In this document: in pieces, positions 4,166-33,493 of the stretch | How the letters are laid out: the number at the start of each line of letters is the position of its first letter | Position numbering within the stretch: position 1 is the first letter of the stretch | Origin: a bacterium | GTDB lineage: Bacteria; Sysuimicrobiota; Sysuimicrobiia; Sysuimicrobiales; Segetimicrobiaceae | DNA length: 64,000 bases | Direction of reading: 5' to 3' | Assembly (NCBI GenBank): GCA_035295165.1 | Contig: DATGJN010000116.1 | Coordinates: 1 to 64,000 of the forward strand | Made by a program: the position numbers and the translations under genes | The notes under the pieces: generated by a model | What the model was told of the DNA's origin: nothing | The model's input: only the letters and a program-made list of their open reading frames with translations | Database searches by the model: none

Positions 4166-5396
4166 CTACAGCGCCCAGGCGACCTCGGCCGGCTCGACCA
4201 CGAGCGCCCACACGGCCCACACGAGCGCGTCGAGCCGGTCCGGCGACTCGCCCGCGCCCAGCACCCAGGAGCATAGTTGCTGCTCAAGGCCCGCGAACAG
4301 GCCTACGTGATGCACGCGGCCCTGCTCGTACAGCGCCGCGATCGGCTCGGCCCGCGCCTGCTTCGACCGCGCGGCCGTGACGATCCGCACCGGGAGGTTC
4401 CGGTCCACGGTCTGAAGGACGCGGCGGACGAGTTCGCCGCCCTGGTTGCCCTCGGCGATGACGCGGTCGGCCTGATGGCCCCGATAGGCGGTGACGACCC
4501 GGTGGGCCCAGGTATCGGGCGAGGCGCGGAGGCTCGCGTCCTCGAGCACGTAGGCGTGCGGCGGTTGCTGGCGGTCCACGCCCGCGACCACGATGCCGCA
4601 CTCAGCACTGCCTTCGGACGATGCGGCGACTGAGGGGTCGACGCCCACCACCACACGCGCGAGGTGCGGAGCGTACCGGAGGCGCGTCTGCTCGAGGAGT
4701 TCGCGCGTCCACAAGGCGCCTGCGGTGTCGAGCAGCAACTCTGCGTAGAGTTCCTGTGGTGCCCGCGTATCGGGTGACGATGTCCGCCGCGAACGCGGGC
4801 GAGAGGTTCGGGAGGTTCTCGAACGTCGTCATGCGCCCAAGCGCCACATCGGTCCCGTCCCGGCTCACGAGATCGCGGATGAGCGGAATCGGCCGCGGGG
4901 TCGTGCTGACCACGCACCGCGCCGCACCGAGCCGCAGCCCAAGCATGAGGTTCGCCCACACCTCATCGGGCTTCTCCCATGCCGCGAGCTCGTCGGCCCA
5001 CGCGAGATCGTGCTGCGGCCCGCGGAGCAGGTCCGGTTCGTCGGCGCTGAACGCCGTCGCCATCGCTCCGTTCGGCCACGTGAGGCGGCGCTTGCTGGGC
5101 TCGTAGGACGGCCGGAACCACCCGGGCGCGATCGCGAGCAAACCTGAGGGCCCCTCGACCATCACGTCGCGCACGTCGGCGGCGGTGCGGCCCACGACAG
5201 CGACGTGCCGCGCGCCGCCGGAGGCGACCTCGGCGGCCACATACTCGCTCGCGCTTCTCGTCTTGCCGCTGCCCCGACCGCCGAGCAGCAGCCAGATCCG
5301 CCAGTCGATCGCAGGCGGAAGCTGCGCGGGGCGCGCGATTGTGACCCACGATGGCGTGTGAAGCGCCGCGGCGAGCGCTTGAGCGAGTTCGTTCAT
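4166..5396 (-). pseudogene. Phage terminase large subunit, split by a frameshift
   Basis: The DNA-packaging motor of a tailed phage in two frames. The upstream part (5396 to about 4760) carries the ATPase: Walker A GGRGSGKT near residue 40 and Walker B region LAWADE. The downstream part (about 4750 to 4166) carries the RNase H-like nuclease with acidic positions in VVGVDPS, VIAEGNQ and DRLDALVWA. At about 4748-4757 the frame moves: RYAGT continues in one frame, while the expected QELYAELL continues in the other, consistent with one extra or two missing bases. Together they would give about 409 residues, a normal Terminase_6 length. It could be a sequencing error, but no portal, capsid or integrase gene is nearby, so decay is plausible. 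Confidence 0.8.
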
Positions 5397-5953
5397 GGTT
5401 CGGGGGCGGCGCTCGCCGTGATGTTGGCCGCTACGGCCTCTCCGTGCGCCGCCAGCGTACGCGACGGACCCGGGCCGGTGTCTTCTCCCTCGATCGCCGC
5501 GAGCACGGCCTCTCTCGCGTCAGGAAACGGCGCGAGTGCGACAACGATCCGCGGCAGAAGCCGTTGCCACTCCGGCGACGCGACCAGCGAGACGGCGACC
5601 TGCACCTGCGTTCCGTGCCGCAGTCGACCCTCGAGTTCGAGCAGGAGGCGCAAGGTCTCGCGCAGTTCGCGGGCGAGCGAGGCGACGTCCTTGGCCGTCT
5701 GGCTCGCCTCCAAAGCCCGCTCCAGCCGTTCCCGCAGCGCCGTGATGCTCGCCAGGAGGCTGTCGGCGCGGGAGGTTTCTCGGGCCTCGCGGGCCTTGGC
5801 AAGCGTTGCGGGCACGTGGGCCTTGTGGCGCGCCAGGGCGTCCTTGGAAACGCGACACCGTCGCGCTATGTCGCGGAACGCCTGCCCGGCGAGTAGGGCC
5901 TCGTCGATGCTCGGACGCTGGGGGTGCCGGCAGACGGTGCAGGTCCGGGGCAT
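5393..5953 (-). CDS. Putative phage terminase small subunit
   Basis: A 186-residue protein whose N-terminal third has a CxxC-like start (CTVCRHPQR) and a helix-turn-helix region (FRDIARRCRVSKDALARH, about 27-44). A long, Arg/Leu/Glu-rich, probably coiled-coil middle (about 55-115) follows, and then an Ala-rich tail. This plan, with the gene ending on the first bases of the terminase large gene (ATGA overlap at 5393-5396), fits a terminase small subunit, which binds phage DNA and recruits the large subunit. The open frame is intact although its partner is frameshifted. Sequence-level recognition is weak; the assignment rests mainly on the HTH and the overlap. Confidence 0.6.
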   Translation of the reverse strand: MPRTCTVCRHPQRPSIDEALLAGQAFRDIARRCRVSKDALARHKAHVPATLAKAREARETSRADSLLASITALRERLERALEASQTAKDVASLARELRETLRLLLELEGRLRHGTQVQVAVSLVASPEWQRLLPRIVVALAPFPDAREAVLAAIEGEDTGPGPSRTLAAHGEAVAANITASAAPEP

Positions 5954-6075
5954 TGTGCGTGCCCTCCCCTATTCCCATCCCCGTCCAGGGGACCGGGGAA
6001 CAGGTGGCCTCGGCAGTCGCAGCGCATCCCGGTGATCCCGGTCTCTGGGTCGACGACGATGATCGTCGTGACCAA
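5866..6075 (-). CDS. Doubtful small ORF of the phage relic
   Basis: A 69-codon frame starting at ATG 6075. Its first 35 residues lie outside other genes and look protein-like (TTIIVVDPETG, then a CDC pair), while its end runs across the start of the terminase small gene in another frame. It could be a small phage protein or the damaged start of a longer one. I do not recognise a family. Confidence 0.2.
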   Translation of the reverse strand: MVTTIIVVDPETGITGMRCDCRGHLFPGPLDGDGNRGGHAQCPGPAPSAGTPSVRASTRPYSPGRRSAT

Positions 6076-6128
6076 TGTCTCGCCGGGCGGGCGCCGCGAC
6101 CGTGGCCGGCGTGCCCGACGGACAGTGA

Positions 6129-6149
6129 TTGGCTGTAGTTTGGCTGTAG
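6129..6149. repeat. Tandem 10-mer TTGGCTGTAG, 11-base period
   Basis: Two perfect copies of TTGGCTGTAG start at 6129 and 6140, between the phage relic and the tRNA. They may be a protein-binding site left by the mobile element, for example a repressor or integrase arm site; nothing else supports a specific role. Confidence 0.5.
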
Positions 6150-6197
6150 CACGGAGGTGCGGCTAAGCAACTATCGAGCGGAAAGCCTTTATTTACT

Positions 6198-6273
6198 TGG
6201 TGGAGACGAGCGGATTTGAACCGCCGACCTCCTGAGTGCGATTCAGGCGCTCTCCCAGCTGAGCTACGTCCCC
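6198..6273 (-). tRNA. tRNA-Ala (anticodon CGC)
   Basis: A complete 76-nt cloverleaf reading leftward. The acceptor stem is GGGGACG/CGTCTCC and contains the G3:U70 wobble pair that defines alanine tRNAs. The D arm is GCTC...GAGC, the anticodon stem CCTGA/TCAGG with loop ATCGCAC (anticodon CGC, reading GCG) and the T arm GGCGG-TTCAAAT-CCGCT, where the last pair is G-T. The 3' CCA is encoded. It flanks the terminase relic, and the 3' ends of tRNA genes are favoured integration sites. I found no second copy of the tRNA 3' end that would mark the other attachment site. Confidence 0.95.
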
Positions 6274-6348
6274 ACTCTTGCACACCCTGTCGTGTCGCGC
6301 CCCGCCGCACCCAGAGCGCCGCTCCGCCTTGTGACGAGCCCGGCTTCG

Positions 6349-6378
6349 ATTATATCCGACCTATGGACACTCTCGCAA
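6349..6378 (-). promoter_or_regulatory. Probable promoter of tRNA-Ala
   Basis: On the minus strand a perfect TATAAT (-10, at 6349-6354) is preceded, after 18 bases, by TTGCGA (-35, at 6373-6378, four of six consensus bases). It would start a transcript about 70 bases upstream of the mature tRNA. Confidence 0.55.
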
Positions 6379-6465
6379 CCCCCAGTGTGAACGACAACGA
6401 TGGTGGCGCCACGCTGACGCGACCGGCGCGCGCCGCGGAGGCACTCGGTACCCCCATGCGCAGGT

Positions 6466-7638
6466 CTACCTTGCGGCCGGGCCGAGCGCCGCGAACGGAT
6501 AGCGGCTCACAGAGAACTCACGATGGCCGAGCTGCTCGGCCTTTGTCAGTTCCCCCCAGGCGACCGCGAGAATCTTGTCAAAGATGCGCTGCCCCATGCT
6601 GCGCAGCGTTTCCCGACCGTCCAGGATCAGCCCGGCGTCGACGTCGATGTTGTCCCGCATGCGCGCGGCGGTATGCGAATTGGTCGCGATCTTGATCACG
6701 GGGATGATCGGGGACCCGGTCGGCGTTCCGCGGCCGGTCGTGAACGCGGCGATCTGACAACCCGCGGCGGTCATGCCGACCATCTGCTCGACGTCGTTTC
6801 CCGGAGTATCCATGATCACGAGCCCGCGCGCGCCTGGACGTACCGCGTATTCGATCACCTCGTGAATCGGTCGGGTGCCCCCCTTCTTGGCGGCCCCGAG
6901 CGACTTCTCCTCAATGGTGGTCAGCCCGCCCTCGATGTTCCCGGGCGCAGGGTTGGCGCCGCGGATGTCTTCCCCGTGGGCGCGAACGACCGCCTCGTAG
7001 CGGTGGATGATCCGGTAGATCGCATCGGCGACCGCGGGGTTCACCGCCCGCCGCGCCAGCAAGTGCTCGGCGCCGATCAGTTCGGTCGTCTCCGCGAGAA
7101 TCACTGTACCGCCGGCGTCCACGAGCAGGTCGCTGGCGTCTCCGAGCGCGGGGTTCGCGGTAATACCGGACAGCGCGTCCGACCCCCCGCATTCCGTCCC
7201 CAGCATGAGCGCGCCGACTGGCGCGCGCTCCCGCGCGGCCGCCGCGGCCTTCGCAAGGAGCGGCACGAGGCGGGCGCGTCCGGACCTGATAGCACCGCGC
7301 AGGCCGCCCGACTCCGCGACCACAACGAGATCTGCGCGCTGCCCCTCCGCGCGGACCGCGTCCAGCGCGGAGGCGTGCCGCGCGGTATCGGCGACGAGCA
7401 ACACCGCCGCGACGTTTGGGTTCGTGGCGAAGCCCACGAACGTGCGCGAGACACGCGCGACATTCTGAGCAAGATCGTCGGGCTCGGGTTCGTAGTCGTG
7501 CTCCACCCAGGTCGCACCCGTGCCGTGGGCAATCGCCCGCGCCACTCCGGACGCCGCGGCGACAAGCGGCATCACGAGCACGTGGTTACGGGTCCCCCAT
7601 CGACCGTTCCCGCGGCGAAAGAGCGGGATCGCATCCAT
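6466..7638 (-). CDS. UxaA-family dehydratase large subunit, paralogue A
   Basis: A 390-residue member of the altronate/galactarate dehydratase (UxaA/GarD) large-domain family, which removes water from sugar acids. It opens with the family start RGNGRWGTRNHV and keeps the second-half motifs: TECGGSD (148-154), SGITANPALG, the segment around GGLTTIEEKSLGA and the C-terminal FTTGRGTPTG region. The first-half metal motif HGxGC of usual UxaA is replaced by HDYEP (47-51), and the GLGCE motif by a sequence without Cys. It lies 6 bases after paralogue B, which shows the opposite pattern, so the two probably form one enzyme with the SAF subunit. The substrate is unknown but probably a sugar acid. Confidence 0.82.
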   Translation of the reverse strand: MDAIPLFRRGNGRWGTRNHVLVMPLVAAASGVARAIAHGTGATWVEHDYEPEPDDLAQNVARVSRTFVGFATNPNVAAVLLVADTARHASALDAVRAEGQRADLVVVAESGGLRGAIRSGRARLVPLLAKAAAAARERAPVGALMLGTECGGSDALSGITANPALGDASDLLVDAGGTVILAETTELIGAEHLLARRAVNPAVADAIYRIIHRYEAVVRAHGEDIRGANPAPGNIEGGLTTIEEKSLGAAKKGGTRPIHEVIEYAVRPGARGLVIMDTPGNDVEQMVGMTAAGCQIAAFTTGRGTPTGSPIIPVIKIATNSHTAARMRDNIDVDAGLILDGRETLRSMGQRIFDKILAVAWGELTKAEQLGHREFSVSRYPFAALGPAAR

Positions 7639-7644
7639 CGGCGT

Positions 7645-8661
7645 TCACATCGTGGGGGCGATTCGGTGAATTGCCATCTCGAACGTCCCGAGCGCTTCCA
7701 CGACCGTCTCTTCACGGCAGCCATCCTCCAGCGCGCGCACGATCGCCGGCGCCGCGCCGGCGTCCGGCTCGACATCGAGCATGACCTCGACGTCCTCGGC
7801 AAACGCGCGCGCGGCGGGGACGACGCCCACGTGCACGACGGGCGCCACCGGGCAACCCGCGGGCAGGCCCTCGATCAACGCGGAGAGGACAACGTGTGCA
7901 CCGACCGCCGCGAGCCCGGTCTTTTGCGCGATCCTCGTTTCGGGGGCCGGCATGAGAAATAGGCGCGACGCGGGGACAGCAGCCGCGACATCCGCCGATC
8001 CGGCGACCGCGTGAGCATACGGGATTGCACGGGACGCTAGCGGCGCCAGCAATGGTGGAACGATCGCCGTCGCGGGAGACCCTGCGCGAGATTGCGGGAC
8101 CGCCTGCACGACGGTGGCGCCCGCCGTCAACAACCGCCTGATCACCTCCACGAACACGGCCGCCTGGACCTGCGGAAGGGACAACCACGCGGCCTCGATG
8201 CCGACACAAAGGTCACCCCAGGCGACCGGTCCTTCGGGGTCGACCGCCGCCGTGTCGCGCAGACGAGCGAGCGCCTCGCGGCCGGCGCGGATGGCCGCGA
8301 GGGTCCCACCGGCCTGCTGGATGCCGACGAACGCGGCGCGCTGCCCGCGGGCCTCGATCGCTCGGTACAGCGATGTGCCCTGGACCGTCTCGCAGCCAAG
8401 CCCAACCACAAGCGTGCCCGCGACGTTGGGATGGGTGCCGAGCCCGGTCAGAATCTGCTCGGTTAGACGCGCGTCGCCGCCGAGTTGAGAGCACCCGTGC
8501 TGATGTTCGATCGCGATCGCGCCGGGGATCCCCTCGGCGATGATCTTCGCCGCCTGCGCGGAGCAGAGCACGGAGGGGATGACGAGTAGGTGGTGGCGGA
8601 TCCCACAGGCCCCGCCCGGCCGGCGTCGCGCTCGCAGTAGGTCCGGTGGGGTCTCATGCAT
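7645..8661 (-). CDS. UxaA-family dehydratase large subunit, divergent paralogue B
   Basis: A 338-residue relative of paralogue A. It keeps the first-half family motifs, HQHGC (53-57) and GLGCE (87-91), but has lost the CGGSD and SGITANP motifs; the corresponding region reads GIEAAWLSLPQV. Its C-terminal third is weakly conserved. ATG 8661 is used because the gene then overlaps the end of the SAF-subunit gene by 8 bases; a longer frame begins at 8676. The order SAF, B, A on the minus strand and the tight spacing indicate one translationally coupled operon. It could alternatively be a non-catalytic structural partner of A. Confidence 0.7.
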   Translation of the reverse strand: MHETPPDLLRARRRPGGACGIRHHLLVIPSVLCSAQAAKIIAEGIPGAIAIEHQHGCSQLGGDARLTEQILTGLGTHPNVAGTLVVGLGCETVQGTSLYRAIEARGQRAAFVGIQQAGGTLAAIRAGREALARLRDTAAVDPEGPVAWGDLCVGIEAAWLSLPQVQAAVFVEVIRRLLTAGATVVQAVPQSRAGSPATAIVPPLLAPLASRAIPYAHAVAGSADVAAAVPASRLFLMPAPETRIAQKTGLAAVGAHVVLSALIEGLPAGCPVAPVVHVGVVPAARAFAEDVEVMLDVEPDAGAAPAIVRALEDGCREETVVEALGTFEMAIHRIAPTM

Positions 8662-8953
8662 GGCCGGCCCCCGCACGGTCGCTGCGGACGTTGTGCACGT
8701 GGACGTGCTGCCCGGGACGAATCGCGGCGAGCGCGTACCCGATCACCTCGCCATATTTCACTATGGGATCGCCGACGTCCATCGGCGCGATCGCAATCTT
8801 GTGCCCGAACGGGATCAATGCGTCGACGCTGACGCGTACGGGCCCGTCGCCGCGGACCGCTTCGACCATCCTGCCCGGTTGGAGCGGTGTCACCGCCACG
8901 GCGACGGTGTCGCGGGGGTCGAGAACAAGCACGGCGGGACGGGCGGCGGCCAT
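8654..8953 (-). CDS. SAF-domain small subunit of UxaA-type dehydratase
   Basis: A 99-residue protein that corresponds to the N-terminal SAF domain of altronate dehydratase. The characteristic stretch runs from LIPFGHKIAIAP (about 46-57) through GDPIVKYGEVIG to HVHVHNV near the end. In UxaA/GarD this domain is fused to, or encoded beside, the large catalytic part and covers the active site. Here it is a separate gene whose end overlaps paralogue B by 8 bases. A 77-base gap separates it from the upstream TIGR01777 gene, so it may have its own promoter or be the continuation of the sugar operon. Confidence 0.85.
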   Translation of the reverse strand: MAAARPAVLVLDPRDTVAVAVTPLQPGRMVEAVRGDGPVRVSVDALIPFGHKIAIAPMDVGDPIVKYGEVIGYALAAIRPGQHVHVHNVRSDRAGAGHA

Positions 8954-9030
8954 GCCTGTATCTTACCGCCCGCGCCGTATCGACGCCAGCGCATCACCGC
9001 TCAGGGAGCGGCGCCCGCATCACCGAGGGG

Positions 9031-9930
9031 TCAGTTGAGAAGCGCCGCGAGCGCGCCCTCGAGGCCGGGCAGCCGGAACGTGTATCCGGTTGCCAGCAGC
9101 CGCGCCGGCGCGGCGCGGGTGCTGGCCAGCAGCGTTTCATCGGCGAGTTCGCCGAACACCAGGCGCAATATCGGCGCCGGCACCGGCAGCACCGCGGGGC
9201 GCCGCACGGCGCGAGCCAGGTCGCGGGTGAACTCGCGATTGGTGACGGGGCGCGGCGAGACGAGGTTCACCGGCCCGGCGAGCTCGTCCCGCGCGAGGAT
9301 GTGCCTGATCGCCCCGACCGCGTCGGCGAGCGTGATCCAGCTCATATATTGTCGCCCGCTCCCGATCGCGCCGCCGAGACCGAACCGGAACAGCGGGAGT
9401 AGCCGTGGCAGCGCACCGCCATCCCGGGACAGCACCGTCCCCGTTCGCAGGTGTGCGACCCGAATTCCCCTGGCGCGCGCGGGTTCCGCCGCCGTCTCCC
9501 ACTCGCGGCACAGATCTGCCAGAAACCCCGTCCCGGGACGGCTCTCCTCTCGCAGGATCTCGTCGCCGCGGTCTCCATAGTACCCGACGGCCGACGCGCA
9601 CACCATCGTTGCAGGCGGACTGGCGACGCCCGCGAGCGCGCGGGCCAGGAGCATCGTACCGTCGACGCGGCTGCGCCAGATCCTCGCCTTGCGCTCCGCC
9701 GTCCACCGCGCCTGGGCGATGCTCTCGCCGGCAAGATGCACGACCGCGTCGACGCCCTTCAACCGGGTGGCGTCGATCCGCCCCGCGCCCGGCTCCCAGG
9801 CGACCTCATCCGCCGCCAGGGTCCCGCTCGCCCGCGTGAGCCGGACCACGTGATCGCCCGCGGCGAGGAGATCGCGGACCAGCGCGGATCCGATCAACCC
9901 GCGCGCTCCCGACACGAGCACGGTCATCAT
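9031..9930 (-). CDS. TIGR01777-family NAD(P)-binding epimerase (YfcH-like SDR)
   Basis: A 299-residue extended short-chain dehydrogenase of the TIGR01777 group. The N-terminal Rossmann motif is GARGLIGSAL (about 8-17); VVHLAGESIA and SAVGYYGDRG are family signatures, the latter including the catalytic Tyr region; the C-terminal DUF1731-like tail has GELADETLLASTRA and ends in GFR-like residues (YTFRLPGLEGAL). Members are common and mostly uncharacterised. It begins 4 bases after the ribokinase stop, so it is read with the sugar operon, although family members usually have no fixed pathway link. Either ATG of a pair (9930 or 9927) could be used. Confidence 0.88.
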   Translation of the reverse strand: MMTVLVSGARGLIGSALVRDLLAAGDHVVRLTRASGTLAADEVAWEPGAGRIDATRLKGVDAVVHLAGESIAQARWTAERKARIWRSRVDGTMLLARALAGVASPPATMVCASAVGYYGDRGDEILREESRPGTGFLADLCREWETAAEPARARGIRVAHLRTGTVLSRDGGALPRLLPLFRFGLGGAIGSGRQYMSWITLADAVGAIRHILARDELAGPVNLVSPRPVTNREFTRDLARAVRRPAVLPVPAPILRLVFGELADETLLASTRAAPARLLATGYTFRLPGLEGALAALLN

Positions 9931-17302: not shown

Positions 17303-19114
17303 ATGCGCAGTCAACGCTTCTGGCAGTACGTGCAACGATACCGGCGGGCCTACCTGATTGGGTATGCGGCCTCGGCCGTCGCCGTGGCCATGGCCCAGTT
17401 GTCGCCCTGGGTCCTGCGCGCGGCGATCGACGCGATCCAGCGGGGGCAAGCAGGCGGGCGCCTCGCCGAGCTCGCCGGGGCGTTGATGCTGCTCGCGCTC
17501 GCGGAGGCGGCGATGACCTACGTCATGCGCACGCAGATCCTGGCCGCGGCGTACCGCGTCGAGTCCGACCTGCGCCACGACTACTTCGCGCACCTCCAGC
17601 GGATGTCGCTGCGGTTCTTCCAGCGCACCCCGGTCGGCGACCTGATGGCTCGGGCCGTCAACGACATCCGGGCGGTCCAACGCCTCGCGGGCGTCGGGCT
17701 GATGCGGTCGGTGCAGACGACGATCATGCTGGTCGCGTCGGTCGCGTTCATGCTGTCGCTGAGCGTCCGCCTCACGTTGTCGATGCTCCTGGTGCTCCCG
17801 CTGATCACGCTCTTGTTCCTCGGGCTCGGCCGGGAGATCCACCGGCGGTTCGACCAGGTGCAGGCGCAGTTCGCGTCGCTGTCGACGCGCGCGCAGGAGA
17901 ACTTCAGCGGCATCCGCGTGGTCAAGGCGTTTGCGCAGGAGGCCGCGGAAAGCGCCCGCTTCAAGACGGAGGTCGACGCCGTCGTCCGCGTGAACATGCG
18001 GTTGGCCAGGGTGCAGGGCGTGTTATGGCCAGCGATCGGCCTGATCGTGGGACTCGCCTCGGTGATTCTGCTGTGGCAGGGCGGCGCGCTCGTCGTCCGC
18101 GGGCCGTTGACGCTCGGGCAGTTGGTCCAGTTCTCGTACTATCTCGCGCGGCTGAGCTTTCCCATGGTCGCGCTCGGCTGGATCACGAACCTGTGGCAGC
18201 AGGGGCGCGCGTCGATGCTCCGCTTGGACGAGATCTTTCGCATCACCCCGGAGGTCCGCGACCCGGCCGATCCCATCGAGCTGGCGGCCCCGCGCGGCGA
18301 GATCGAGTTCCGTCACGTGACCGTCGCGTTTGACGGGGCGCCGGTGCTGCACGACGTGTCCCTGCGCATCCCCGAGGGTCGCACCGTCGCGATCGTCGGC
18401 GCCACCGGGTCGGGCAAGAGCACCCTCGTCGGGCTGGTGCCGCGGCTGTACGATCCCGTGCGGGGCGAGGTGCTCGTGGACGGCCATGACGTGCGCACCC
18501 TCTCCCTCGCGTCCCTGCGCCGCGCGATCGCCCTCGTGCCGCAGGAGGCGTTTCTGTTCTCCGACACGCTGCACGAGAACATCAGCCTCGGCCGTGACGA
18601 CGCCGGCGCCTCGAACGAGGAGCGTGCGCCCGGCCTCGTAGCCGCGGCCGGGGCGGTGTCGCAGCTCACCGCGGATGTCGAAGGGTTCCCCCTCAAGTAC
18701 GCCACGGTCGTGGGCGAGCGCGGCGTGACTCTCTCCGGCGGGCAGCGCCAACGCGCGGCGCTTGCTCGTGCGGTCATCCGGGACCCACGCATCCTGATCC
18801 TCGACGACGCGCTGAGCAGCGTGGACACCGACACCGAACGGCGCATTCTCGAACAGCTGCGCGCCGTGATGGCGTCCCGGACATCCCTCATCATCGCCCA
18901 TCGCGTCTCCACGATCCGCGACGCCGACTGGATCGTCGTGCTCCGCGACGGGCGGATCGCCGAGCAGGGCACCCACGACACGTTGCTCGCCGCGGGCGGC
19001 CTCTACGCGACGCTCTACGAACAGCAGCTGCTGCGGGAGGAGCTCGAAGCGGCAGACCCTGAGGCGAACGAGCCCGGGGCGCCGCCCCACGCGGCGGAGA
19101 TCCCTCGGCCATGA
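17303..19114 (+). CDS. ABC exporter half-transporter, degenerate-site subunit
   Basis: A 603-residue membrane-spanning plus ATPase protein of the multidrug/lipid exporter class. Six helices fill about 15-300. The ATPase has Walker A GATGSGKST (about 366-374), Q-loop VPQEAF, a canonical signature LSGGQRQR (about 477) and Walker B ILILDDALSSVD, where the usual catalytic Glu is Asp. The partner gene starts inside its stop (ATGA) and shows the complementary pattern: catalytic Glu kept, signature altered. That is the hallmark of asymmetric heterodimers such as TM287/288 or BmrCD. The substrate cannot be told from sequence; drugs, lipids and peptides are all known for the class. Confidence 0.92.
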   Translation: MRSQRFWQYVQRYRRAYLIGYAASAVAVAMAQLSPWVLRAAIDAIQRGQAGGRLAELAGALMLLALAEAAMTYVMRTQILAAAYRVESDLRHDYFAHLQRMSLRFFQRTPVGDLMARAVNDIRAVQRLAGVGLMRSVQTTIMLVASVAFMLSLSVRLTLSMLLVLPLITLLFLGLGREIHRRFDQVQAQFASLSTRAQENFSGIRVVKAFAQEAAESARFKTEVDAVVRVNMRLARVQGVLWPAIGLIVGLASVILLWQGGALVVRGPLTLGQLVQFSYYLARLSFPMVALGWITNLWQQGRASMLRLDEIFRITPEVRDPADPIELAAPRGEIEFRHVTVAFDGAPVLHDVSLRIPEGRTVAIVGATGSGKSTLVGLVPRLYDPVRGEVLVDGHDVRTLSLASLRRAIALVPQEAFLFSDTLHENISLGRDDAGASNEERAPGLVAAAGAVSQLTADVEGFPLKYATVVGERGVTLSGGQRQRAALARAVIRDPRILILDDALSSVDTDTERRILEQLRAVMASRTSLIIAHRVSTIRDADWIVVLRDGRIAEQGTHDTLLAAGGLYATLYEQQLLREELEAADPEANEPGAPPHAAEIPRP

Positions 19115-20949
19115 GCGTCATGGCGGACGACGACCAGATTCTCGGCCGCGCCTACGACGCGCGCCTGATCCGGCGGCTGTTGCGCTATGTGCGGCCGTAT
19201 CGCCGCATCGTCACGTGGTCGATCGCGTTCCTGTTGATCGCGTCTGCGACCGACCTGGCCGGCCCCTGGTTGTACCGGATCGCGATCGACCGGTACATCG
19301 CCCCGCACACCTCCGGCACGCCGGCGGCGGGGACCCTCGGGCAGGCAGCGGACGTCCGGGGCCTCGCCGGGATCGCCGCGCTGTACGTCGCGATCCTGTG
19401 CGTCGGCTTCGCGGCCCGGTGGCTGCAGAGCAACTTGATGCAATACGTCGGCCAGCGCGTGATGGCCGATCTCCGCGTCCAGATGTTCGAACACCTCCAG
19501 GCGCTCTCGGCGGGGTTCTTCACGCGGGAGCCGGTAGGCCGGCTGGTCACACGCGTCACCAACGACGTGGACGCGCTCAACGAGCTGATCACGTCGGGCG
19601 TCGTCGCGATCTTCGGAGACATCGCGACGCTGGTGGGCATCACGGTCGTCATGCTGTGGATGAACTGGCGGTTGGCGCTGGCGGCGTTTACGGTGTTGCC
19701 GCTGGTCTATGCGGTGACCGATCGGTTCCGCCTCCGGTCGCGGGGCGCCTACCGAGCGGTGCGGACGCGCTTGGCCCGCCTGAACGCGTTCCTGGCCGAG
19801 CACCTGATGGGCATGACCGTGACCCAGTTGTTCAACCAGGAGCGCCGCAGCCGGCGGCGCTTCGGCGAGCTCAACACGAGTCTGCTGGACGCCAACCTCG
19901 ACTCGACCTGGAACTTCTCCCAGTTCTACCCGGCGATCCAGTTGCTCGGTGCGGTGGGCGTCGCGGTCCTCCTCTGGTACGGCGGCGGCCAGGTCGTCCG
20001 TCACGTGACTACGCTCGGCGTGCTGGTCGCGACGATCCAGTACGCAGAGCGGTTCTTCGATCCGCTCCGGGACCTCTCGGACAAGTTCAACATCCTGCAG
20101 GCGGCGATGGCCTCGTCCGAGCGGATCTTCCGCGTGTTGGACGAGCCGGTCACCGTCCAGGACCCGCCGCGACCGGTGGCGTTGCCCACGGTGCGGGGAC
20201 GGATCGAATTCCGGGACGTGTGGTTCGCATACGAGAACGACGAGACGTGGGCGCTGCGGGGCATCTCGTTCACGGTCGAACCGGGGCAGGCCGTCGCCCT
20301 CGTCGGTCACACCGGTGCCGGCAAAACGTCGATCCTGAACCTGCTGACGCGCTTCTACGATCCGCAGCGCGGTCGCGTGCTGGTCGACGGCGTGGACGTC
20401 CGGGACGTCAGCCAGCGGGACCTGCGGCGGCACATCGGGTTGGTGCTGCAAGACGTGTTCTTGTTCGCCGGCACGGTCGAGAGCAACATTCGTCTCGGCA
20501 ACCCCGACCTCACCACCGAGGACGTCCGCCGCGCCGCCGAGCGCGTCGGCGCCGATCGCTTCATCGAGGCGCTGCCGGGCGGGTACGCCGCTGAACTGCG
20601 CGAGCGCGGCGCCGGACTGTCGGTCGGCCAGAAGCAGTTGATCGCGTTCGCGCGGGCGCTTGCCGCAAACCCCGAGATCCTGCTCGTCCTCGACGAGGCG
20701 ACGAGCAGCGTCGACACCCAGACGGAGGCGCTGATCCGGCACGCGATGGCCACCGTCCTCCGCGGGCGAACGTCGATCACGATCGCGCACCGCCTCTCGA
20801 CGATCCAGCACGCCGACCGGATCCTGGTGTTGCATCGGGGTCGGATCGCCGAGGAGGGTCGGCACCACGACCTGCTGCGCCGCAACGGGATCTACGCGAA
20901 GTTGTACCGCCTCCAATTCGAAGAGCAGGAGCGGGGCGCCGCGGGTTGA
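19111..20949 (+). CDS. ABC exporter half-transporter, catalytic-site subunit
   Basis: A 612-residue partner of the preceding gene. Helices fill about 25-310, with the helix-rich core containing the exporter-type coupling segment VTRVTNDVDALNEL. The ATPase has Walker A GHTGAGKTS (about 394-402), Walker B LLVLDEATSSVD with the catalytic Glu, and H-loop TIAHRLSTI. The signature is LSVGQKQL rather than LSGGQ, so the site formed with the partner's Walker A is the non-hydrolysing one. ATG 19111 overlaps the upstream stop by 4 bases. A 13-bp hairpin follows directly and closes the operon. Confidence 0.92.
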   Translation: MSVMADDDQILGRAYDARLIRRLLRYVRPYRRIVTWSIAFLLIASATDLAGPWLYRIAIDRYIAPHTSGTPAAGTLGQAADVRGLAGIAALYVAILCVGFAARWLQSNLMQYVGQRVMADLRVQMFEHLQALSAGFFTREPVGRLVTRVTNDVDALNELITSGVVAIFGDIATLVGITVVMLWMNWRLALAAFTVLPLVYAVTDRFRLRSRGAYRAVRTRLARLNAFLAEHLMGMTVTQLFNQERRSRRRFGELNTSLLDANLDSTWNFSQFYPAIQLLGAVGVAVLLWYGGGQVVRHVTTLGVLVATIQYAERFFDPLRDLSDKFNILQAAMASSERIFRVLDEPVTVQDPPRPVALPTVRGRIEFRDVWFAYENDETWALRGISFTVEPGQAVALVGHTGAGKTSILNLLTRFYDPQRGRVLVDGVDVRDVSQRDLRRHIGLVLQDVFLFAGTVESNIRLGNPDLTTEDVRRAAERVGADRFIEALPGGYAAELRERGAGLSVGQKQLIAFARALAANPEILLVLDEATSSVDTQTEALIRHAMATVLRGRTSITIAHRLSTIQHADRILVLHRGRIAEEGRHHDLLRRNGIYAKLYRLQFEEQERGAAG

Positions 20950-21015: not shown

Positions 21016-22629
21016 CTACCGCACCCCACCGGCACCCCAGCGGAACGAGTAGAAGTTGTACACGCCGTCCGGATCGGCCAGAACGTTCTGCATCCTGGCC
21101 GAGATCGCCGTCCGCGCGTTGGGGTAGTACAACACCAGGACCGGGAGCTGGTCCGCGAACATCACCTGGAACTGATCATAGATCTGCTTGCGCTTCGCCG
21201 GATCGGACGCCGCCGCGCCCGCGTCCAGCAGCTTGTCCATGTCCGGCATCGACAGGAACGAGAAATTGTACTGTCCGGCGGTGCGGTACTGCGACGAAAC
21301 GTCCGGGTCGGTCGGCCCCGCCCACCCGATCAACATCAGGTCGTAGTCGCCCCTCTTCGCCGCGGCGATCAACGTCGGAAAGTCGGACTTCTGGATGTCC
21401 GTCTTGATCCCCACGGCGGCGAGGTTCTCCTTGATGATATCCGCCGACCGCTCGCGGATCGTGTTGCCCACGGGCACCCGCAGCAACAAGGTCCGGTTCG
21501 CATCCCACCCGGCCTCCTGCAGCAGCGCCTTCGCCTTCGCCACGTCGTACGGCCACGGCTTCACGGCCTTGTTAAAGTACGGGTTCGCCGGCGGGATCGG
21601 ACCGTCCGCGATCATGCCCTCCCCGCGCAACAATTGGGACACCATCAACTGGCGGTTGATCCCCTCCGCCATCGCTTGCCGCACTCGCTTGTCTTGCAGA
21701 TAGGACTTCTGGAAATTGAACAGCATGTACTGATAGCCGGGCGCCGGGAACGAGGCCGCGTGCACGTTCGGCATCGTCTTCACCGTATCCCAGTCTTCGA
21801 TCGGCACCTCGCCGATCCCGAACCCCGCGGTCACGTCCAGGTCGCCGCGCTGGAGCTGAGCGACCATCGACGCGGGCGGGATGATCCGGATGAACACACG
21901 CCGGACCTTCGGCACGCCCAGGTGGTACGCGTCGTTCGCGGCGAGCTCAATGTACTCGTCGGTTCGGTACTGTGCGAACTTGAACGGCCCGTCCCCAACG
22001 GTCGGGTGCTGGAAGAACTGCGACTTCGACAACTGGTCCGGCGGCGTGTCCGCCAGCACGTGCTTCGGCAGAATGTACACGTTGTACCCGAACAGTTCGA
22101 GGAACATCTGCGGGTCTACCGGCACGCGGGTTTTGACCTCGACCGTGCGGTCGTTGACGGCCCGGATCCCGATCGCCACCCCCGGCGCGCGTTTGCCGTG
22201 GACGTCGAGACCAGCGATCTGCGCGATGTCGGCGCCTCGGTTCGTCTCGGTTTTGGGGTCGCTGATCGTCATCACCGTGTACACGACGTCATCCGCCGTG
22301 ACCGGCTTACCGTCGTGCCACATCGCCTTGGGATTGAGGGTGAACGTAAACGTCTGCCGGTCGGGCGACACCGTCCACCGCTGCGCCAGGTCCGGGGAGA
22401 ACACCAGCTTGTTGTTCTCGAGACGCGCGGCGACCAACGTATCGAATATGAACCGGATGCCGAAGAAGCCGTAGGAGCTGTCGGTGTTGATCGGGTTGAA
22501 GTTGTTCGGCGGGCTCCACATCCCCGCGACAACGACGAGCGATGAGCTCGGTCCCGCCGCCCGGACGGGCGACAGAGGCACGACCAGGCTCGCGACGATC
22601 AGGAGCACAACCGCCCAGCGAACGCGCAT
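21016..22629 (-). CDS. Peptide/nickel-type ABC transporter solute-binding protein (SBP_bac_5)
   Basis: Exported binding protein of 537 residues that delivers oligopeptides or similar solutes to the DppB/DppC permease encoded just upstream. The signal peptide occupies about 1-25 (MRVRWAVVLLIVASLVV core, ending near VRA). Family landmarks are FTLNPKAMWHDGKPVTADDVVYT (read in parts), VGDGPFKF and YMLFNFQKSY. ATG 22629 is preceded by GGGGAGGGA and begins with the signal peptide; the longer frame from 22701 is not needed. No lipobox Cys is present, so in a two-membrane cell the protein would be free in the periplasm. It is the last gene of the M20-DppB-DppC-SBP operon. Confidence 0.9.
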   Translation of the reverse strand: MRVRWAVVLLIVASLVVPLSPVRAAGPSSSLVVVAGMWSPPNNFNPINTDSSYGFFGIRFIFDTLVAARLENNKLVFSPDLAQRWTVSPDRQTFTFTLNPKAMWHDGKPVTADDVVYTVMTISDPKTETNRGADIAQIAGLDVHGKRAPGVAIGIRAVNDRTVEVKTRVPVDPQMFLELFGYNVYILPKHVLADTPPDQLSKSQFFQHPTVGDGPFKFAQYRTDEYIELAANDAYHLGVPKVRRVFIRIIPPASMVAQLQRGDLDVTAGFGIGEVPIEDWDTVKTMPNVHAASFPAPGYQYMLFNFQKSYLQDKRVRQAMAEGINRQLMVSQLLRGEGMIADGPIPPANPYFNKAVKPWPYDVAKAKALLQEAGWDANRTLLLRVPVGNTIRERSADIIKENLAAVGIKTDIQKSDFPTLIAAAKRGDYDLMLIGWAGPTDPDVSSQYRTAGQYNFSFLSMPDMDKLLDAGAAASDPAKRKQIYDQFQVMFADQLPVLVLYYPNARTAISARMQNVLADPDGVYNFYSFRWGAGGVR

Positions 22630-22707
22630 CAACGTTTTCCCTCCCCATACCGCGTGCGCGGTGATTCGGGGGCCGCGGCGTCCCCTCCTCCGCTGCGTCA
22701 CCCGATG

Positions 22708-23670
22708 TTACAATCGCAGGCTCGGATCCAAGGCGTCGCGCAGGCCGTCGCCGACGAAGTTGATCGCGAGGACCGCGATCAGAATCATGATCCCCGGCGG
22801 CACCCACAGCCACGGCATTCGCTCGAGGACCGTCAACGACTGTGCGTCCGTCAACATGTTCCCCCACGACGGCGTCGGCGGCTGCACGCCCAGCCCGAGA
22901 AAGGACAGCGACGCCTCGGTCAGGATCGCGTTGGCCGTGCCGAACGTGGCGGCGACGAGCACGGGCGCCATCGCGTTCGGCAGCAAGTGGTGGGCGACGA
23001 CGCGCGCGTCGGATCCTCCCGTGGCCCGCGCGGCCTGCACGAACTCCAGGCCGCGCAATCCGAGGAACTGGCCGCGGACGAGCCGGCTGACGATGGGCCA
23101 GCCGAGGGCGCCGAGCACGATGATGATGTTCGCGAGGCTCGGCCGGCCGAAGATACTGACGGCGAACAGGATGATGATGAGCGGCGGAAACGACAGCACC
23201 ACATCGGTCAGGCGGCTGAGCACGGTGTCCACGGCCCCGCCGTGATATCCGGCGAGGGCGCCGACCACGGTGCCGAGCACGACATAGATCGCGACCGCGA
23301 GCAGGCCCACGGTCAGGGACACGCGGCCGGCGTAGAGCAACCGGCTCAGGACATCGCGGCCCACGCTGTCTGTTCCCAACGGGTGCGTGCCGGACGGCGG
23401 CGCCTGAAACTGCGTCGGATCGATCGTCGTCGGGCCGTGCGGCGCGAGCAGCGGCGCAAATACCGCAAGCCCGCCCACCGCCGCGAGCGCGATCAGGCCG
23501 ACGACCGCCAGCCGGTGCCGCAGGAACCGCCGCCCGGCGATCGCCCAGAAGGACGTGGACCGGGGCGCCCGCACGACCGCGACCGCCGGCGCGGCCGTGG
23601 ACACCGCCCGTCCCGTCGCCGCGCCGGCGCCGTCGCGCGGTTGCCTCGCCCGCCGGGGCGGCCTGCGCAT
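22708..23670 (-). CDS. Dipeptide/oligopeptide ABC transporter permease, DppC type
   Basis: A 320-residue inner-membrane permease. The N-terminal N-box region around FWAIAGRRFLRHRLAVVG is followed by a first helix, PLGTDSVGRDVLSR (a DppC hallmark) and the remaining helices. The EAA loop that contacts the ATPase reads ARATGGSDARVVAHHLLPN, and the C-terminus FVGDGLRDALDP is typical. ATG 23670 shares one base with the stop of the DppB gene. The preceding 40-odd residues are Arg/Ala-rich and probably cytoplasmic. No ATPase gene is in this operon, so DppD/DppF subunits must be encoded elsewhere. Confidence 0.9.
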   Translation of the reverse strand: MRRPPRRARQPRDGAGAATGRAVSTAAPAVAVVRAPRSTSFWAIAGRRFLRHRLAVVGLIALAAVGGLAVFAPLLAPHGPTTIDPTQFQAPPSGTHPLGTDSVGRDVLSRLLYAGRVSLTVGLLAVAIYVVLGTVVGALAGYHGGAVDTVLSRLTDVVLSFPPLIIILFAVSIFGRPSLANIIIVLGALGWPIVSRLVRGQFLGLRGLEFVQAARATGGSDARVVAHHLLPNAMAPVLVAATFGTANAILTEASLSFLGLGVQPPTPSWGNMLTDAQSLTVLERMPWLWVPPGIMILIAVLAINFVGDGLRDALDPSLRL

Positions 23671-24617
23671 CAGTCGTACCGGATCCTGGGATCGACGAAC
23701 GAGTAAGTGACGTCGGCCAGCAGGTTGCCGACGACGACGAGCACCGCCGCGGCGAGCGTGATGCCCATCAGTACCGGGTAGTCGCGCTGGTTGATCGCCT
23801 CGATCGTGAGGCGCCCCATCCCGGGCCATTCGAAGATCTGTTCCGTGATGACGGCTCCTGCGAGCAGCGCCGGGAGCTGCAGCCCGGCGAGCGTCACCAC
23901 CGGGAGCAGGGCGTTGCGGAGCGCGTGGCGGCGGAGCACGACGCCCTCCCCCAATCCCTTCGCGCGCGCGGTACGCACGAACTCCTGCCCGAGCACCTCG
24001 AGCATGCTGGACCGGACGTACCGGGTCAGCGCGCCGGCGCCGGCCGCGGCGAGCACGACCGCGGGCAGGATCAGGTGCGTGACCCCGTCCAGGAACCCCC
24101 CGCCGCCGAGCGTCATCGTGCCGCCGGTGGGGAGCCATCGCAGGCGCAGGGCGAAGATGTAGATTCCGATCAGCCCGAGGAAGAACGTCGGCAGGCTGAT
24201 GCCGAGAAACGCGAGCAGCGTCGCGCTGTAGTCGATCCACGTGTACCGGCGCGTCGCCGCCAGCACGCCCGCCGGCACGGCCACGAGGTAGGAGAGCACG
24301 AGCGCGCTGAGCGTCAGCGTGAGCGTCGGCTCGAGACGCTCCGCGATCCGACCGGCGACCGGCGCGCCGCTTGAAAACGAGTACCCCAGGTTGCCGTGCG
24401 CCATCTCCCCGAGCCACTTGACGTAGCGCACGTAGATGGGCTGGTCCAACCCGAGCGCGTGGCGCTTGATCTGCACGTCGGCCGCGCTCATGCTCGGATC
24501 GATCAACGCCTGCACCGGATCGCCGGGCGTCAGCGAGATGATCAGGTAGCTCATCGCGGTGACCCCGAGCAGCACCGGGATCGTGATCAGCAACCGTCGG
24601 ACGAGATAGCGCGCCAT
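23670..24617 (-). CDS. Dipeptide/oligopeptide ABC transporter permease, DppB type
   Basis: A 315-residue inner-membrane permease. The start MARYLVRRLLITIPVLLGVT is the usual first helix, followed by SLTPGDPVQALI, the DppB signature, and by GLDQPIYVRYVKWL. The EAA loop reads TARAKGLGEGVVLRRHALRN, and TEQIFEWPGMGRLTIEAI and the C-terminal VDPRIRYD are family-typical. It pairs with the DppC subunit to form the channel. It lies 33 bases after the M20 hydrolase gene, so the operon probably couples uptake with hydrolysis of an N-acyl or peptide substrate. Confidence 0.92.
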   Translation of the reverse strand: MARYLVRRLLITIPVLLGVTAMSYLIISLTPGDPVQALIDPSMSAADVQIKRHALGLDQPIYVRYVKWLGEMAHGNLGYSFSSGAPVAGRIAERLEPTLTLTLSALVLSYLVAVPAGVLAATRRYTWIDYSATLLAFLGISLPTFFLGLIGIYIFALRLRWLPTGGTMTLGGGGFLDGVTHLILPAVVLAAAGAGALTRYVRSSMLEVLGQEFVRTARAKGLGEGVVLRRHALRNALLPVVTLAGLQLPALLAGAVITEQIFEWPGMGRLTIEAINQRDYPVLMGITLAAAVLVVVGNLLADVTYSFVDPRIRYD

Positions 24618-24650: not shown

Positions 24651-26036
24651 CTACCCCGCGGCGAATTCGTAGAAGAACCTGGCGACCGAGCGCTCGAACC
24701 GGCGCATCCCTTCGATCGTCGCGTACTCGTTGGGGCTGTGGGGCCGCCCGCCATGCCCGAGTCCGCCGGCAGCGAACGGTTGACCGAGCGTTCGGCGAAA
24801 CAGGTAGAACGGGGCCGATCCGGCCAGGTGGGGCCACACCTCGGGCTCGTGGCCGAGTCCGCGGATCGCGCGGAGCAGGGCCTGCACAACCGGCTCGTTG
24901 AGGCTCGTCTTCGCCGGTGGGTAGCCGTCGTAGAAGTGGACCTGGATGTCCTCGCGCCCAAGCCGCGCGAGGTGGGCACGGATCCGTTCACGCACGCGTT
25001 CCGGCTCCATGTTCGGCACCATCCGCACGTCCATCTTCACCTTGACCTCGTGCGGCAACAGCGTCTTCATCGCGGGCCCCGTGTATCCACCCCACACGCC
25101 GTCGATGTTGAGCGTGGGATCGTACAGATAGTGGCGTAGGAGCGCGGCGCGGTCCTCGGGGTACTTGAAGCGCTCGGCGTCCCAGTTCCACAGCTGCGTC
25201 GCCGGATCGAACGTCTCCGCCAGCTTCGTGAGCAGCGCTTCGTCCTCGGCGCTCGGCGGCACCACGTCGTCGCGGAACCCGGCGACCTGGATCTGCTCGT
25301 CATCCGTCATCATCGTCGCGAGCGCCCGCACCAACCGCCACGCCGGGTTGCCGATCCACACGGCGTTGCTCCCGTGCACCCCGCGGGTCCGCGGACCACC
25401 CCACGCCCCGCCGCGGCACGTGACCTCGAAGTACTGGATTCCCTTGACGCCGAGCCAGAGCACCGGCTTACCGTGCCGCTCCTGGCAGTAGAACGCGAAA
25501 TACGTCGCATCGGCTTTGAGCTTGTCGCGGTAGGCGTTGATGAAACCGGGGAGGTTCCGGCTGCCAAGCTCCTCTTCGCCCTCGATGACGAACTTGACGT
25601 TCACGGGCAAGCGACCGTCGGCCTGCCGGATCGCCTCGATGACGTTGAACATGCCCGCGAGTGGACCCTTCGTGTTATACACGCCTCGGGCGACGATGCT
25701 GGGTCCGAACTCGGGCAGGGTCACCGTCTGCCCCGCAAACGGCGGCACCATCCACTCCTCGCCCTCGACCGGCTGGACATCGTACATCCCGTAGAGCAAC
25801 AGGGTCTTCGGCCGTCCCGCGTCGAGCGCCCCGTAGACGACCGGCCAGCCGGGCGTCGGCACGATCTCAGCGTTCCCCCCCAACCGGGTGATCGTGTCCC
25901 GCAGCATCTCCGCCATCTCCTGCATCCCGACGCCTTCGCCGCTGATGCTGGGCTGACGGACGAACGCCCGCACGCGATCGACGTGCCGGTCGAACTCGTC
26001 GTCGATGCGGGAAAGGACTCGGTCGATCTCCATCAT
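24651..26036 (-). CDS. M20-family hydrolase with altered metal-site residues
   Basis: A 461-residue protein of the M20 metallopeptidase/deacylase fold and length. Expected ligand positions differ from the family: the first His of YGHYDVQP is Met (YGMYDVQP, about 79-86), the bridging Asp of GxxDxKG is Asn (GVYNTKGP), and the SDGGLHPSG-type Asp segment is replaced by FYCQERHGKP. The catalytic/metal Glu pair (EGEEELGSR), the lid-domain His (VHGSN) and the C-terminal His (RPHSPNE) remain. Either it uses a different metal arrangement or it is a non-hydrolytic binding protein. ATG 26036 follows AGGGGGG. It is the first gene of the operon with DppB, DppC and a binding protein. Confidence 0.8.
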   Translation of the reverse strand: MMEIDRVLSRIDDEFDRHVDRVRAFVRQPSISGEGVGMQEMAEMLRDTITRLGGNAEIVPTPGWPVVYGALDAGRPKTLLLYGMYDVQPVEGEEWMVPPFAGQTVTLPEFGPSIVARGVYNTKGPLAGMFNVIEAIRQADGRLPVNVKFVIEGEEELGSRNLPGFINAYRDKLKADATYFAFYCQERHGKPVLWLGVKGIQYFEVTCRGGAWGGPRTRGVHGSNAVWIGNPAWRLVRALATMMTDDEQIQVAGFRDDVVPPSAEDEALLTKLAETFDPATQLWNWDAERFKYPEDRAALLRHYLYDPTLNIDGVWGGYTGPAMKTLLPHEVKVKMDVRMVPNMEPERVRERIRAHLARLGREDIQVHFYDGYPPAKTSLNEPVVQALLRAIRGLGHEPEVWPHLAGSAPFYLFRRTLGQPFAAGGLGHGGRPHSPNEYATIEGMRRFERSVARFFYEFAAG

Positions 26037-32104: not shown

Positions 32105-33493
32105 CTACCGCGTCGCCCGGCGTAGCGTCCCCTTCCGATCCGCGTCGGCGAGGGCCTGGAACACCTGCGCGCTCGTATGGATGCCGTCGTAGTAGCGTTC
32201 CAAGCTCAGATTCTCATTGGGGCTGTGGTTGTTCTCGTCCGCGTTGGCATACGGCACGCCGATGTGGTCCACGCCGAGCACGTTCGGCCACACCGCGTTC
32301 GGAAGACTCCCGCCGCCGGACAGGTTGATGTAGGGAGCCGTGCCGCGGTATGCCCGGATCGCCTCGGCCACGACGCCGACGGCGGGGTGGTCTGCCGGCG
32401 TCCGGCTCGCCTCCATCACCCCGAACCCCCGCTCCAGGACCCGCACACGGGGGTCCACCGCCGCGACGTGCCGCTCGACCTTCGTAAGAATGTCCTGCGT
32501 CTTCTGATCCACGACGAGGCGGATGTCGATCCGGCATTCGGCGCGCGACGGAATGATCGTCTTGGAACCGGGCCCCACGTAGCCGCTGATGAATCCGTTG
32601 ATGTTGAAATACGGCTCCAGCATGATGCGCTTCCAGTACGTGGCACCGTCCATCGGCAGCGTGTCCAAACCCATGGTCGCCGCAAACGCCCCAGGATCGA
32701 AGTCCATCGCGGCGAGCAACCGTTCCTCGACCGGACCGATCGGCCGGACGTGGTCGTAGAACCCGTCGATGAGCACGCGTCCCGATCGGTCCACCATCGT
32801 TGAGAGCAGATGCACGAGCATCCACACCGGGTTCGGCGCGACGCCGCCTTTGTTGCCGGAGTGGTTGTCGCGATCCGCGCCTTCGGCGACGAGCGTGATG
32901 CCGAGGATGCCACGATTGCCGAGCGACACCGTGGGTGCGCCGGACGGATGCAATCCCCCATCGGAGATGTACACCAGGTCGGCCGCGAGCTTGACCCGAT
33001 GATCCCGGACGAACCCGCCAAGGCTCCGCGAGCCCGACTCCTCCTCGCCCTCGAACACGAACTTAAGGTTGATCGGCGGGCCGCCCGCCGCCTCCATCCA
33101 GGCGTTCGCCGCGAGCACGTGCGTGATGAGCTGGCCCTTATTGTCGCCGGTGCCCCGGCCGTACAGTCTTCCATCGCGGACCGTCGGCACGAACGGGGGC
33201 GTCTCCCACAACTCGAGCGGTTCGGGCGGCTGCACGTCGTAGTGTCCGTAACACAGCAGTGTGTACGCCCGAGGATCCCGAACGATCTCACCGTATACGA
33301 TCGGCTGCGTCTCGGTCGGGATGATCTCCGCCGCGATCCCGAGCCCGTGAAGGAGATCGGCGAGGTAGCTGGCGCACTCCTTCACGCCGTTGTCTTGCGC
33401 GCTGACGCTTGGCTGCCGGACCAATCCTTTCAACGTCTCAAGCGCTTCGCCGCGGTGTTCGTCGATATACCGGTGCACACGGTCCACGGGCAT
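32105..33493 (-). CDS. M20-family dipeptidase/metallopeptidase, canonical site
   Basis: A 462-residue M20 (PepV/CNDP-like) enzyme that hydrolyses dipeptides or N-acyl amino acids with two zinc ions. All ligands are as expected: His/Asp in CYGHYDVQP (about 83-91), bridging Asp in GRGTGDNKGQ, Glu pair in EGEEESGSR, Asp in ISDGGLHPSG, lid His in NHSGNKGG and the C-terminal His in NNHSPNENL. ATG 33493 is chosen because the conserved start VDRVHRYIDEHR begins there; a longer frame to 33610 has no homology. It contrasts with the M20 relative at 24651, whose ligands are altered. Confidence 0.93.
   Translation of the reverse strand: MPVDRVHRYIDEHRGEALETLKGLVRQPSVSAQDNGVKECASYLADLLHGLGIAAEIIPTETQPIVYGEIVRDPRAYTLLCYGHYDVQPPEPLELWETPPFVPTVRDGRLYGRGTGDNKGQLITHVLAANAWMEAAGGPPINLKFVFEGEEESGSRSLGGFVRDHRVKLAADLVYISDGGLHPSGAPTVSLGNRGILGITLVAEGADRDNHSGNKGGVAPNPVWMLVHLLSTMVDRSGRVLIDGFYDHVRPIGPVEERLLAAMDFDPGAFAATMGLDTLPMDGATYWKRIMLEPYFNINGFISGYVGPGSKTIIPSRAECRIDIRLVVDQKTQDILTKVERHVAAVDPRVRVLERGFGVMEASRTPADHPAVGVVAEAIRAYRGTAPYINLSGGGSLPNAVWPNVLGVDHIGVPYANADENNHSPNENLSLERYYDGIHTSAQVFQALADADRKGTLRRATR

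Follow-up and report, generated by a model that had tools for sequence, protein, structure and literature searches.

A gene of the 64,000-nucleotide stretch of bacterial DNA analysed here (the window) encodes a real, conserved variant of the M20 peptidase family, in which an ordinary M20 fold carries an altered metal site. The same residue pattern recurs in relatives that lie on a branch apart from canonical M20 proteins, evolve under purifying selection and, at a number of loci, are linked to genes of an Opp-type peptide importer. Tentatively, we favour the reading that the product is a cytosolic M20 protein that binds one metal at most and works on peptides or N-acyl amino acids after their import.

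The open reading frame, whose limits had been given correctly in the initial annotation, is read on the minus strand and is intact (Table 1). Since both Pfam domains score above their gathering thresholds (Peptidase_M20, E = 1.2e-21, 78.1 versus 24.6 bits; M20_dimer, E = 1.5e-9, 38.2 versus 21 bits), the product can be assigned by homology to the M20/M25/M40 peptidase family. The alterations that the initial annotation had listed were all recovered: the first His is Met (YGMYDVQP), the bridging Asp is Asn (GVYNTKG), and the DGGLH-type Asp segment is absent, TYFAFYCQ being found where an SDGGL or WE segment is expected. The catalytic Glu pair (EGEEELGS) and the C-terminal His (HSPNE) are retained, again as had been reported. 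In an alignment to mouse carnosine dipeptidase 2 (CN2), Met84, Asn121 and Phe182 stand opposite His99, Asp132 and Asp195, while Glu155, Glu156 and His433 stand opposite Glu166, Glu167 and His445; Ala181 aligns with a Glu of Sso-CP2-type proteins. In CN2, metal 1 is bound by His445, Asp132 and Glu167, metal 2 by Asp132, His99 and Asp195, and Glu166 is the catalytic residue, according to the excerpted text of PMC6271292. The variant protein has two of the five metal ligands of a two-metal M20 peptidase (E156 and H433), and both the catalytic Glu and the trans His (E155 and H221). From the residue changes mapped onto CN2, we conclude that the metal-2 site is gone, that the bridge is Asn, and that the metal-1 half is left. 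Relatives from other records, 86%, 52% and 48% identical, share these substitutions, which therefore do not reflect chance or a sequencing slip.

Table 1. Positions in the window of the variant M20 gene, its key codons, the adjoining importer genes and the canonical M20 control
Feature	Position	Strand	Remarks
SBP_bac_5 solute-binding protein of the importer	21016..22701	minus	Pfam 6.7e-83
OppC-type importer permease	22708..23700	minus	BPD_transp_1 2e-31, OppC_N 7.8e-15; start codon unsettled
OppB-type importer permease	23670..24617	minus	Pfam BPD_transp_1 6.5e-44
Variant M20-fold gene	24651..26036	minus	461 aa; ATG at 26036; intact frame
His433 codon	24738..24740	minus	Metal-1 ligand position (CN2 His445), retained
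His428 codon	24753..24755	minus	Five residues ahead of His433
His221 codon	25374..25376	minus	Equivalent of CN2 His228, retained
W-G-x-P insertion, residues 212-215	25392..25403	minus	Directly before trans His221; missing from canonical relatives
Ala181-Phe182 codons	25491..25496	minus	Third-ligand position (canonical Glu or Asp); no acid
Glu155 and Glu156 codons	25569..25574	minus	Catalytic Glu and metal-1 ligand position, retained
Asn121 codon	25674..25676	minus	Stands at bridging Asp position (CN2 Asp132)
Met84 codon	25785..25787	minus	Stands at metal-2 His position (CN2 His99)
Canonical M20 control	32105..33493	minus	All five metal ligands; 32% identical to variant protein

The M20 gene at 32105, which had been put forward as an internal control, is suited to that use, with GHYD, GDNKG, EGEEE, SDGGLH and NHSPNE all present. 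A canonical comparison set, made up of BLAST hits in G061, G062 and the genome and phylum to which the window belongs, and not a broad sample, had His at position 84 and Asp at 121 in 19 of 19 sequences, each of which also had an acid at one of positions 181 and 182; in a larger canonical set, Asp was found at 121 in 24 of 24.

An AlphaFold2 model of the variant protein, built from a six-row alignment, had a mean pLDDT of 82.6 and a pTM of 0.86, with pLDDT below 50 in two loops, residues 212-228, which hold the W-G-x-P insertion and the His221 region, and residues 313-326. Its best structural match was Sso-CP2, an M20 metallo-carboxypeptidase of Sulfolobus solfataricus (PDB 4mmo; VIA Z 40.3, rmsd 2.6 over 428 residues; Foldseek E = 2.1e-33), followed by CN2/CNDP2 (PDB 2zof, M20A; VIA Z 37.2). 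The M20 fold named in the initial annotation is thus borne out by the predicted structure, which has both the catalytic and the dimerisation domain when compared with 4mmo_A. Sso-CP2 resembles the variant over nearly the full length of the fold, at 31% identity, and shares the catalytic Glu pair and the last His; it differs in carrying His, Asp and Glu (the Glu being presumably its third ligand) at the positions of the variant's Met, Asn and Ala, and in lacking the insertion that precedes His221. In CN2, the residues replaced in the variant are His99, Asp132 and Asp195, which leaves the variant without a metal-2 site. Three NCBIfam M20 models gave the best scores and covered nearly the whole protein, all well under their cut-offs (PRK06446, 273.4 versus 369 bits; PRK09104, 220.6 versus 327; PRK08201, a dipeptidase model, 214 versus 441), which places the variant outside these named subfamilies.

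We tabulated 34 variants with the half-site pattern (22 + 10 + 2, the window's included), from the window's phylum, Bacillota and one Chloroflexota genome. The bulk of them came from whole genomes, and a scan of contigs gave three loci only. At E ≤ 1e-95, members were found at 22 places in 18 of 43 genomes of the window's phylum. At E ≤ 1e-90, with at most four candidates scored per genome so that the counts are lower bounds, they were found in at least 2 of 348 genomes of the order and at least 8 of 398 genomes of the phylum of the Bacillus relative (its own genome counted in both), and in at least 1 of 400 genomes of the phylum of the Chloroflexota relative, namely that genome itself, with two tandem copies. 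No relatives were found in the viral contigs searched, and searches of two further phyla, run without a positive control, gave members in 0 of 1 and 0 of 40 genomes. Left out of the table were a duplicate match (L012, of L009), an entry with the same coordinates as the L010 gene (L046), the fragments G035:C337 and G027:C195, the weak partial matches L050-L052, and 3 of 11 matches in the window's own genome. The window's genome holds a second half-site relative (L002, G000:C85:32543-33952; 44% identical), for which no Opp permease was found within 6 kb.

The conservation profile showed the YGMYD- and NTKG-type substitutions to be prevalent among the 34 proteins. Position 84 was Met in 30, Leu in three and Ser in one, never His; position 121 was Asn in 33 and Asp in one; and no variant had an acid at 181 or 182, although three Bacilli members had His at 182. 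D86, E155, E156, H221 and H433 were invariant (34/34). His428 was likewise present in all 34, in 4 of 8 more degenerate relatives described below, in 1 of 24 canonical proteins and in 4 of 19 canonical controls. The W and P of the W-x-x-P insertion were present in 42 of 42 non-canonical proteins, against a gap in 24 of 24 canonical ones. Of 27 relatives, most or all retained equivalents of the CN2 residues Glu166, Glu167, His445, Thr330, Arg343, Ser417 and His228 (the last four in 26, 26, 25 and 27, respectively), and some of these four equivalents presumably grip the carboxylate of the substrate. Thr330, Arg343, Ser417 and the partner-chain His228 are ligand contacts in a docking study of CNDP2, as given in the excerpted text of PMC12655758. 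Internal stops were found in none of the 34 frames, and dN/dS in eight close pairs of variants was 0.04-0.13. The Chloroflexota locus (L011) carries two tandem variant genes, at 5211-6626 and 8001-9383, the first of which has Ser at 84 and Asp at the bridging position, the sole such case among the 34.

In trees drawn with a midpoint root, the 34 variants and 19 canonical proteins were divided by a single branch (100/100), present in all 200 bootstrap trees, and a larger tree divided 42 non-canonical from 24 canonical proteins with the same support (100/100). The eight additional proteins (L004, L111-L116 and L122) are more degenerate: they lack a His at 84, and neither 181 nor 182 is acidic. 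Seven of these eight have lost both E156 and H433, which L114 retains; all eight keep D86, E155, H221, R338 and the W-x-x-P insertion. None of the eight frames has an internal stop, and dN/dS in three pairs was 0.09, 0.24 and 0.13. Their number is not a census, the 12 stretches added for the larger tree (seven degenerate, five canonical) having been picked by hand from a longer list. They group with the half-site proteins L002, L028 and L044 (93/83), with an exact place that is unsure because long branches meet there, and the other 31 half-site variants, among them the window's protein, form one branch (100/99). The distinct clade suggested in the initial annotation therefore stands for the 42-member branch, which is set apart from canonical M20 proteins, and not for the 34 alone, which are a grade since L002, L028 and L044 sit with the degenerate relatives. 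A search of the open-licence PMC literature, by title and the start of the abstract, revealed no description of such an M20 branch.

One degenerate relative, L004 (G000:C79:14969-16303), lies in the window's own genome; it has lost E156 and H433 and kept E155, and genes for hydantoinase/oxoprolinase A and B are found about 2 kb from it. L111, L112, L113, L115, L116 and L122, which come from the window's phylum, also have open frames without E156 and H433.

The importer operon of the initial annotation is real: genes for the M20 protein, OppB, OppC and the SBP_bac_5 protein follow one another on one strand, with the OppB start 33 bases downstream of the M20 gene. By sequence, the best solved relatives of the SBP_bac_5 protein were AppA-type and dipeptide-binding proteins. 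At six other loci, an OppB that is 79-81% identical stands beside the variant gene. Beside the importer operon, two adjoining plus-strand genes (17555-20949) are ABC-exporter-like, the first by similarity only; in G002, a like exporter pair adjoins the variant gene, and an Opp gene was not found on the contig, which ends 384 bases past the variant gene.

An OppB-type permease was present within 6 kb of the variant gene at 14 of 26 loci and at 7 of 7 further loci of the Bacillus phylum, or 21 of 33. The 20 control loci comprised 19 that are canonical by motif and one degenerate relative, L096; a permease was found at 1 of the 19 canonical loci (L085) and also at L096. Fisher's exact test against 1/19 gave p = 0.001 for 14/26 and 3e-5 for 21/33, values to be taken as indicative only, since the loci are not independent, variant loci supplied the queries and several contigs stop short. 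At 10 of the 26 loci, two of them being the references themselves, there was an OppB with 55% identity or more to that of the window or of Cytobacillus; none of the 20 controls had one. No OppB was in range at 12 loci (L054, L059, L062, L065-L071, L073 and L075). Gene order was M20-OppB-OppC-SBP in the window, OppB-OppC-SBP-M20 in L058 and M20-SBP-OppB-OppC in Bacillus. That the order shifts and the genes nevertheless stay together suggests a functional tie between the variant M20 protein and the Opp importer.

What the neighbourhoods share, with exceptions, is a link to the scavenging of peptides and amino acids. Neighbouring genes encode AstE/AspA-type deacylases (Cytobacillus), an M19 dipeptidase (L056), an M24 peptidase and an Asp/Glu racemase (L063), and a short-chain dehydrogenase (L068). 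The L108 cluster holds three RraA-like proteins, an M20 amidohydrolase and an M20 protein above the dipeptidase cut-off, and the L104 cluster holds M19 and M24 peptidases and a hydrolase below the cut-off for proline iminopeptidase. A Cytobacillus plasmid carries one variant gene in a large cluster (L041, 12863-29825), together with AstE/AspA-type or M14-annotated proteins and two Opp-type importers.

In the reading we favour, the protein would be cytosolic and probably a dimer. It would bind at most one metal, in site 1, with Glu156, His433 and perhaps Asn121 or His428 as ligands and Glu155 as acid/base. His221, whose equivalent reaches the active site of the partner subunit, would remain in use in trans, along with the residues thought to grip the substrate carboxylate, and the substrates may be peptides or N-acyl amino acids delivered by the adjacent Opp-type importer. 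Judged from the residues, a one-metal protein would fit the pattern of a lost metal-2 site and a metal-1 Glu and His that are invariant in the 34 variants; a metal in the window's protein is favoured because this pair stayed invariant despite the loss of the metal-2 site. On the other side, Asn binds metals less strongly than Asp does, so that E156 and H433 may fail to retain one, and the lack of an importer near 12 of 33 loci counts against this reading.

A partial precedent may be seen in human glutaminyl cyclase, a protein of the related M28 fold that, to our knowledge, has no M20 dimerisation domain. According to the excerpted text of PMC11312887, this enzyme carries Zn only at Zn1 (Asp159, Glu202 and His330), and the Zn2 residues are there with the site empty. 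The likeness to the scheme proposed for the variant would lie in the occupation of the Zn1 position alone. As far as the same excerpt goes, the cyclase keeps the Asp ligand and the Zn2 residues, whereas in place of its Asp-Glu-His triad the window's protein, and 33 of the 34 variants overall, have Asn-Glu-His. In type II glutaminyl cyclases Zn may be dispensable, according to the excerpted text of PMC8465894, and for both reasons the precedent is partial: by analogy, the cyclase may lend plausibility, not identity, to a scheme with site 1 only. A bolder proposal, which we consider unlikely, is that the 42 proteins make up a functionally new type of M20 protein whose two-metal centre was dismantled in stages, metal 2 being lost first (in the 34, the window's among them) and metal 1 afterwards (in seven), with the catalytic Glu, the trans His and the substrate side retained. 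Such proteins would catalyse acyl transfer, for instance cyclisation or transacylation, on carboxylate-bearing peptides brought in by import, using a single metal or none, as an M20 parallel to the M28 glutaminyl cyclase.

A close rival to the one-metal reading, and one that we regard as quite possible, is that the protein is free of metal, either a pseudoenzyme for binding or sensing or an enzyme that works through Glu155 without a metal, with imported peptide-like ligands sitting in the retained pocket. With three of the five ligands lost in the half-site proteins, and with metal 1 also lost in seven of the degenerate relatives, one of them in the window's own genome, the binding role that the initial annotation had allowed for gains weight. 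Since those seven genes, too, show open frames and dN/dS of 0.09-0.24 in the pairs compared, a function can persist in this branch after metal 1 is lost, and D86, E155, H221, R338 and the W-x-x-P insertion are still in place in all eight. Against a metal-free protein, E156 and H433 do not vary among the 34 half-site variants, even in L002, L028 and L044, which group with the degenerate relatives, whereas without a bound metal these residues should have drifted. The enzyme-rich clusters of L108 and L104 point the same way, though they do not prove that the variant is an enzyme.

An ordinary two-metal peptidase, with the missing ligands supplied by other residues such as His428 and Asn121, appears improbable. 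Asn is able to ligate metals, His428 lies five residues before H433 in all 34 variants, and His occurs at 182 in the three Bacilli members. When residues restoring a two-zinc site were sought in the 34 sequences, however, no acid replaced the third ligand in any of them, and position 84 is Leu in three and Ser in one; His428 is not a specific replacement ligand, because some canonical full-site relatives have it too. The initial annotation had also suggested another metal; that such a metal is held by Met84 is likewise weakened by the Leu and Ser residues, and we reject it as a general rule.

We hold it to be more doubtful still that the variant is a non-catalytic partner in a heterodimer, lending His221 in trans to a canonical M20 protein. 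His221 is invariant, and the distance to a canonical M20 gene is about 6 kb in the window and about 4 kb in the L108 cluster; yet with the queries used no M20 gene was detectable within 6 kb at the 26 loci except at L011 (the second variant), the window's canonical control P0002 lying just outside this range, and an M20 neighbour was found at 1 of the 7 further loci. Distant M20 subfamilies would escape this search, and one such protein in L108 was picked up by Pfam only. That the gene is decaying and drifting to loss, as the lost conserved ligands might suggest, is hardly credible, being contradicted by the intact frames, the low dN/dS and the same substitutions recurring across phyla in one branch.

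Relatives of the variant, the Cytobacillus plasmid copy for example, are annotated by similarity as metallo-hydrolases. Our results warn that a match to the family alone is insufficient to name such genes hydrolases, as the branch keeps the catalytic base and the substrate side and yet is unable to assemble the usual dinuclear site. Related genomes contain three stages, a full site, a metal-1 half and no metal ligands, which amount to a natural experiment on the role of each metal, and the link to an Opp-type importer and to peptidase clusters provides a concrete set of candidate substrates.
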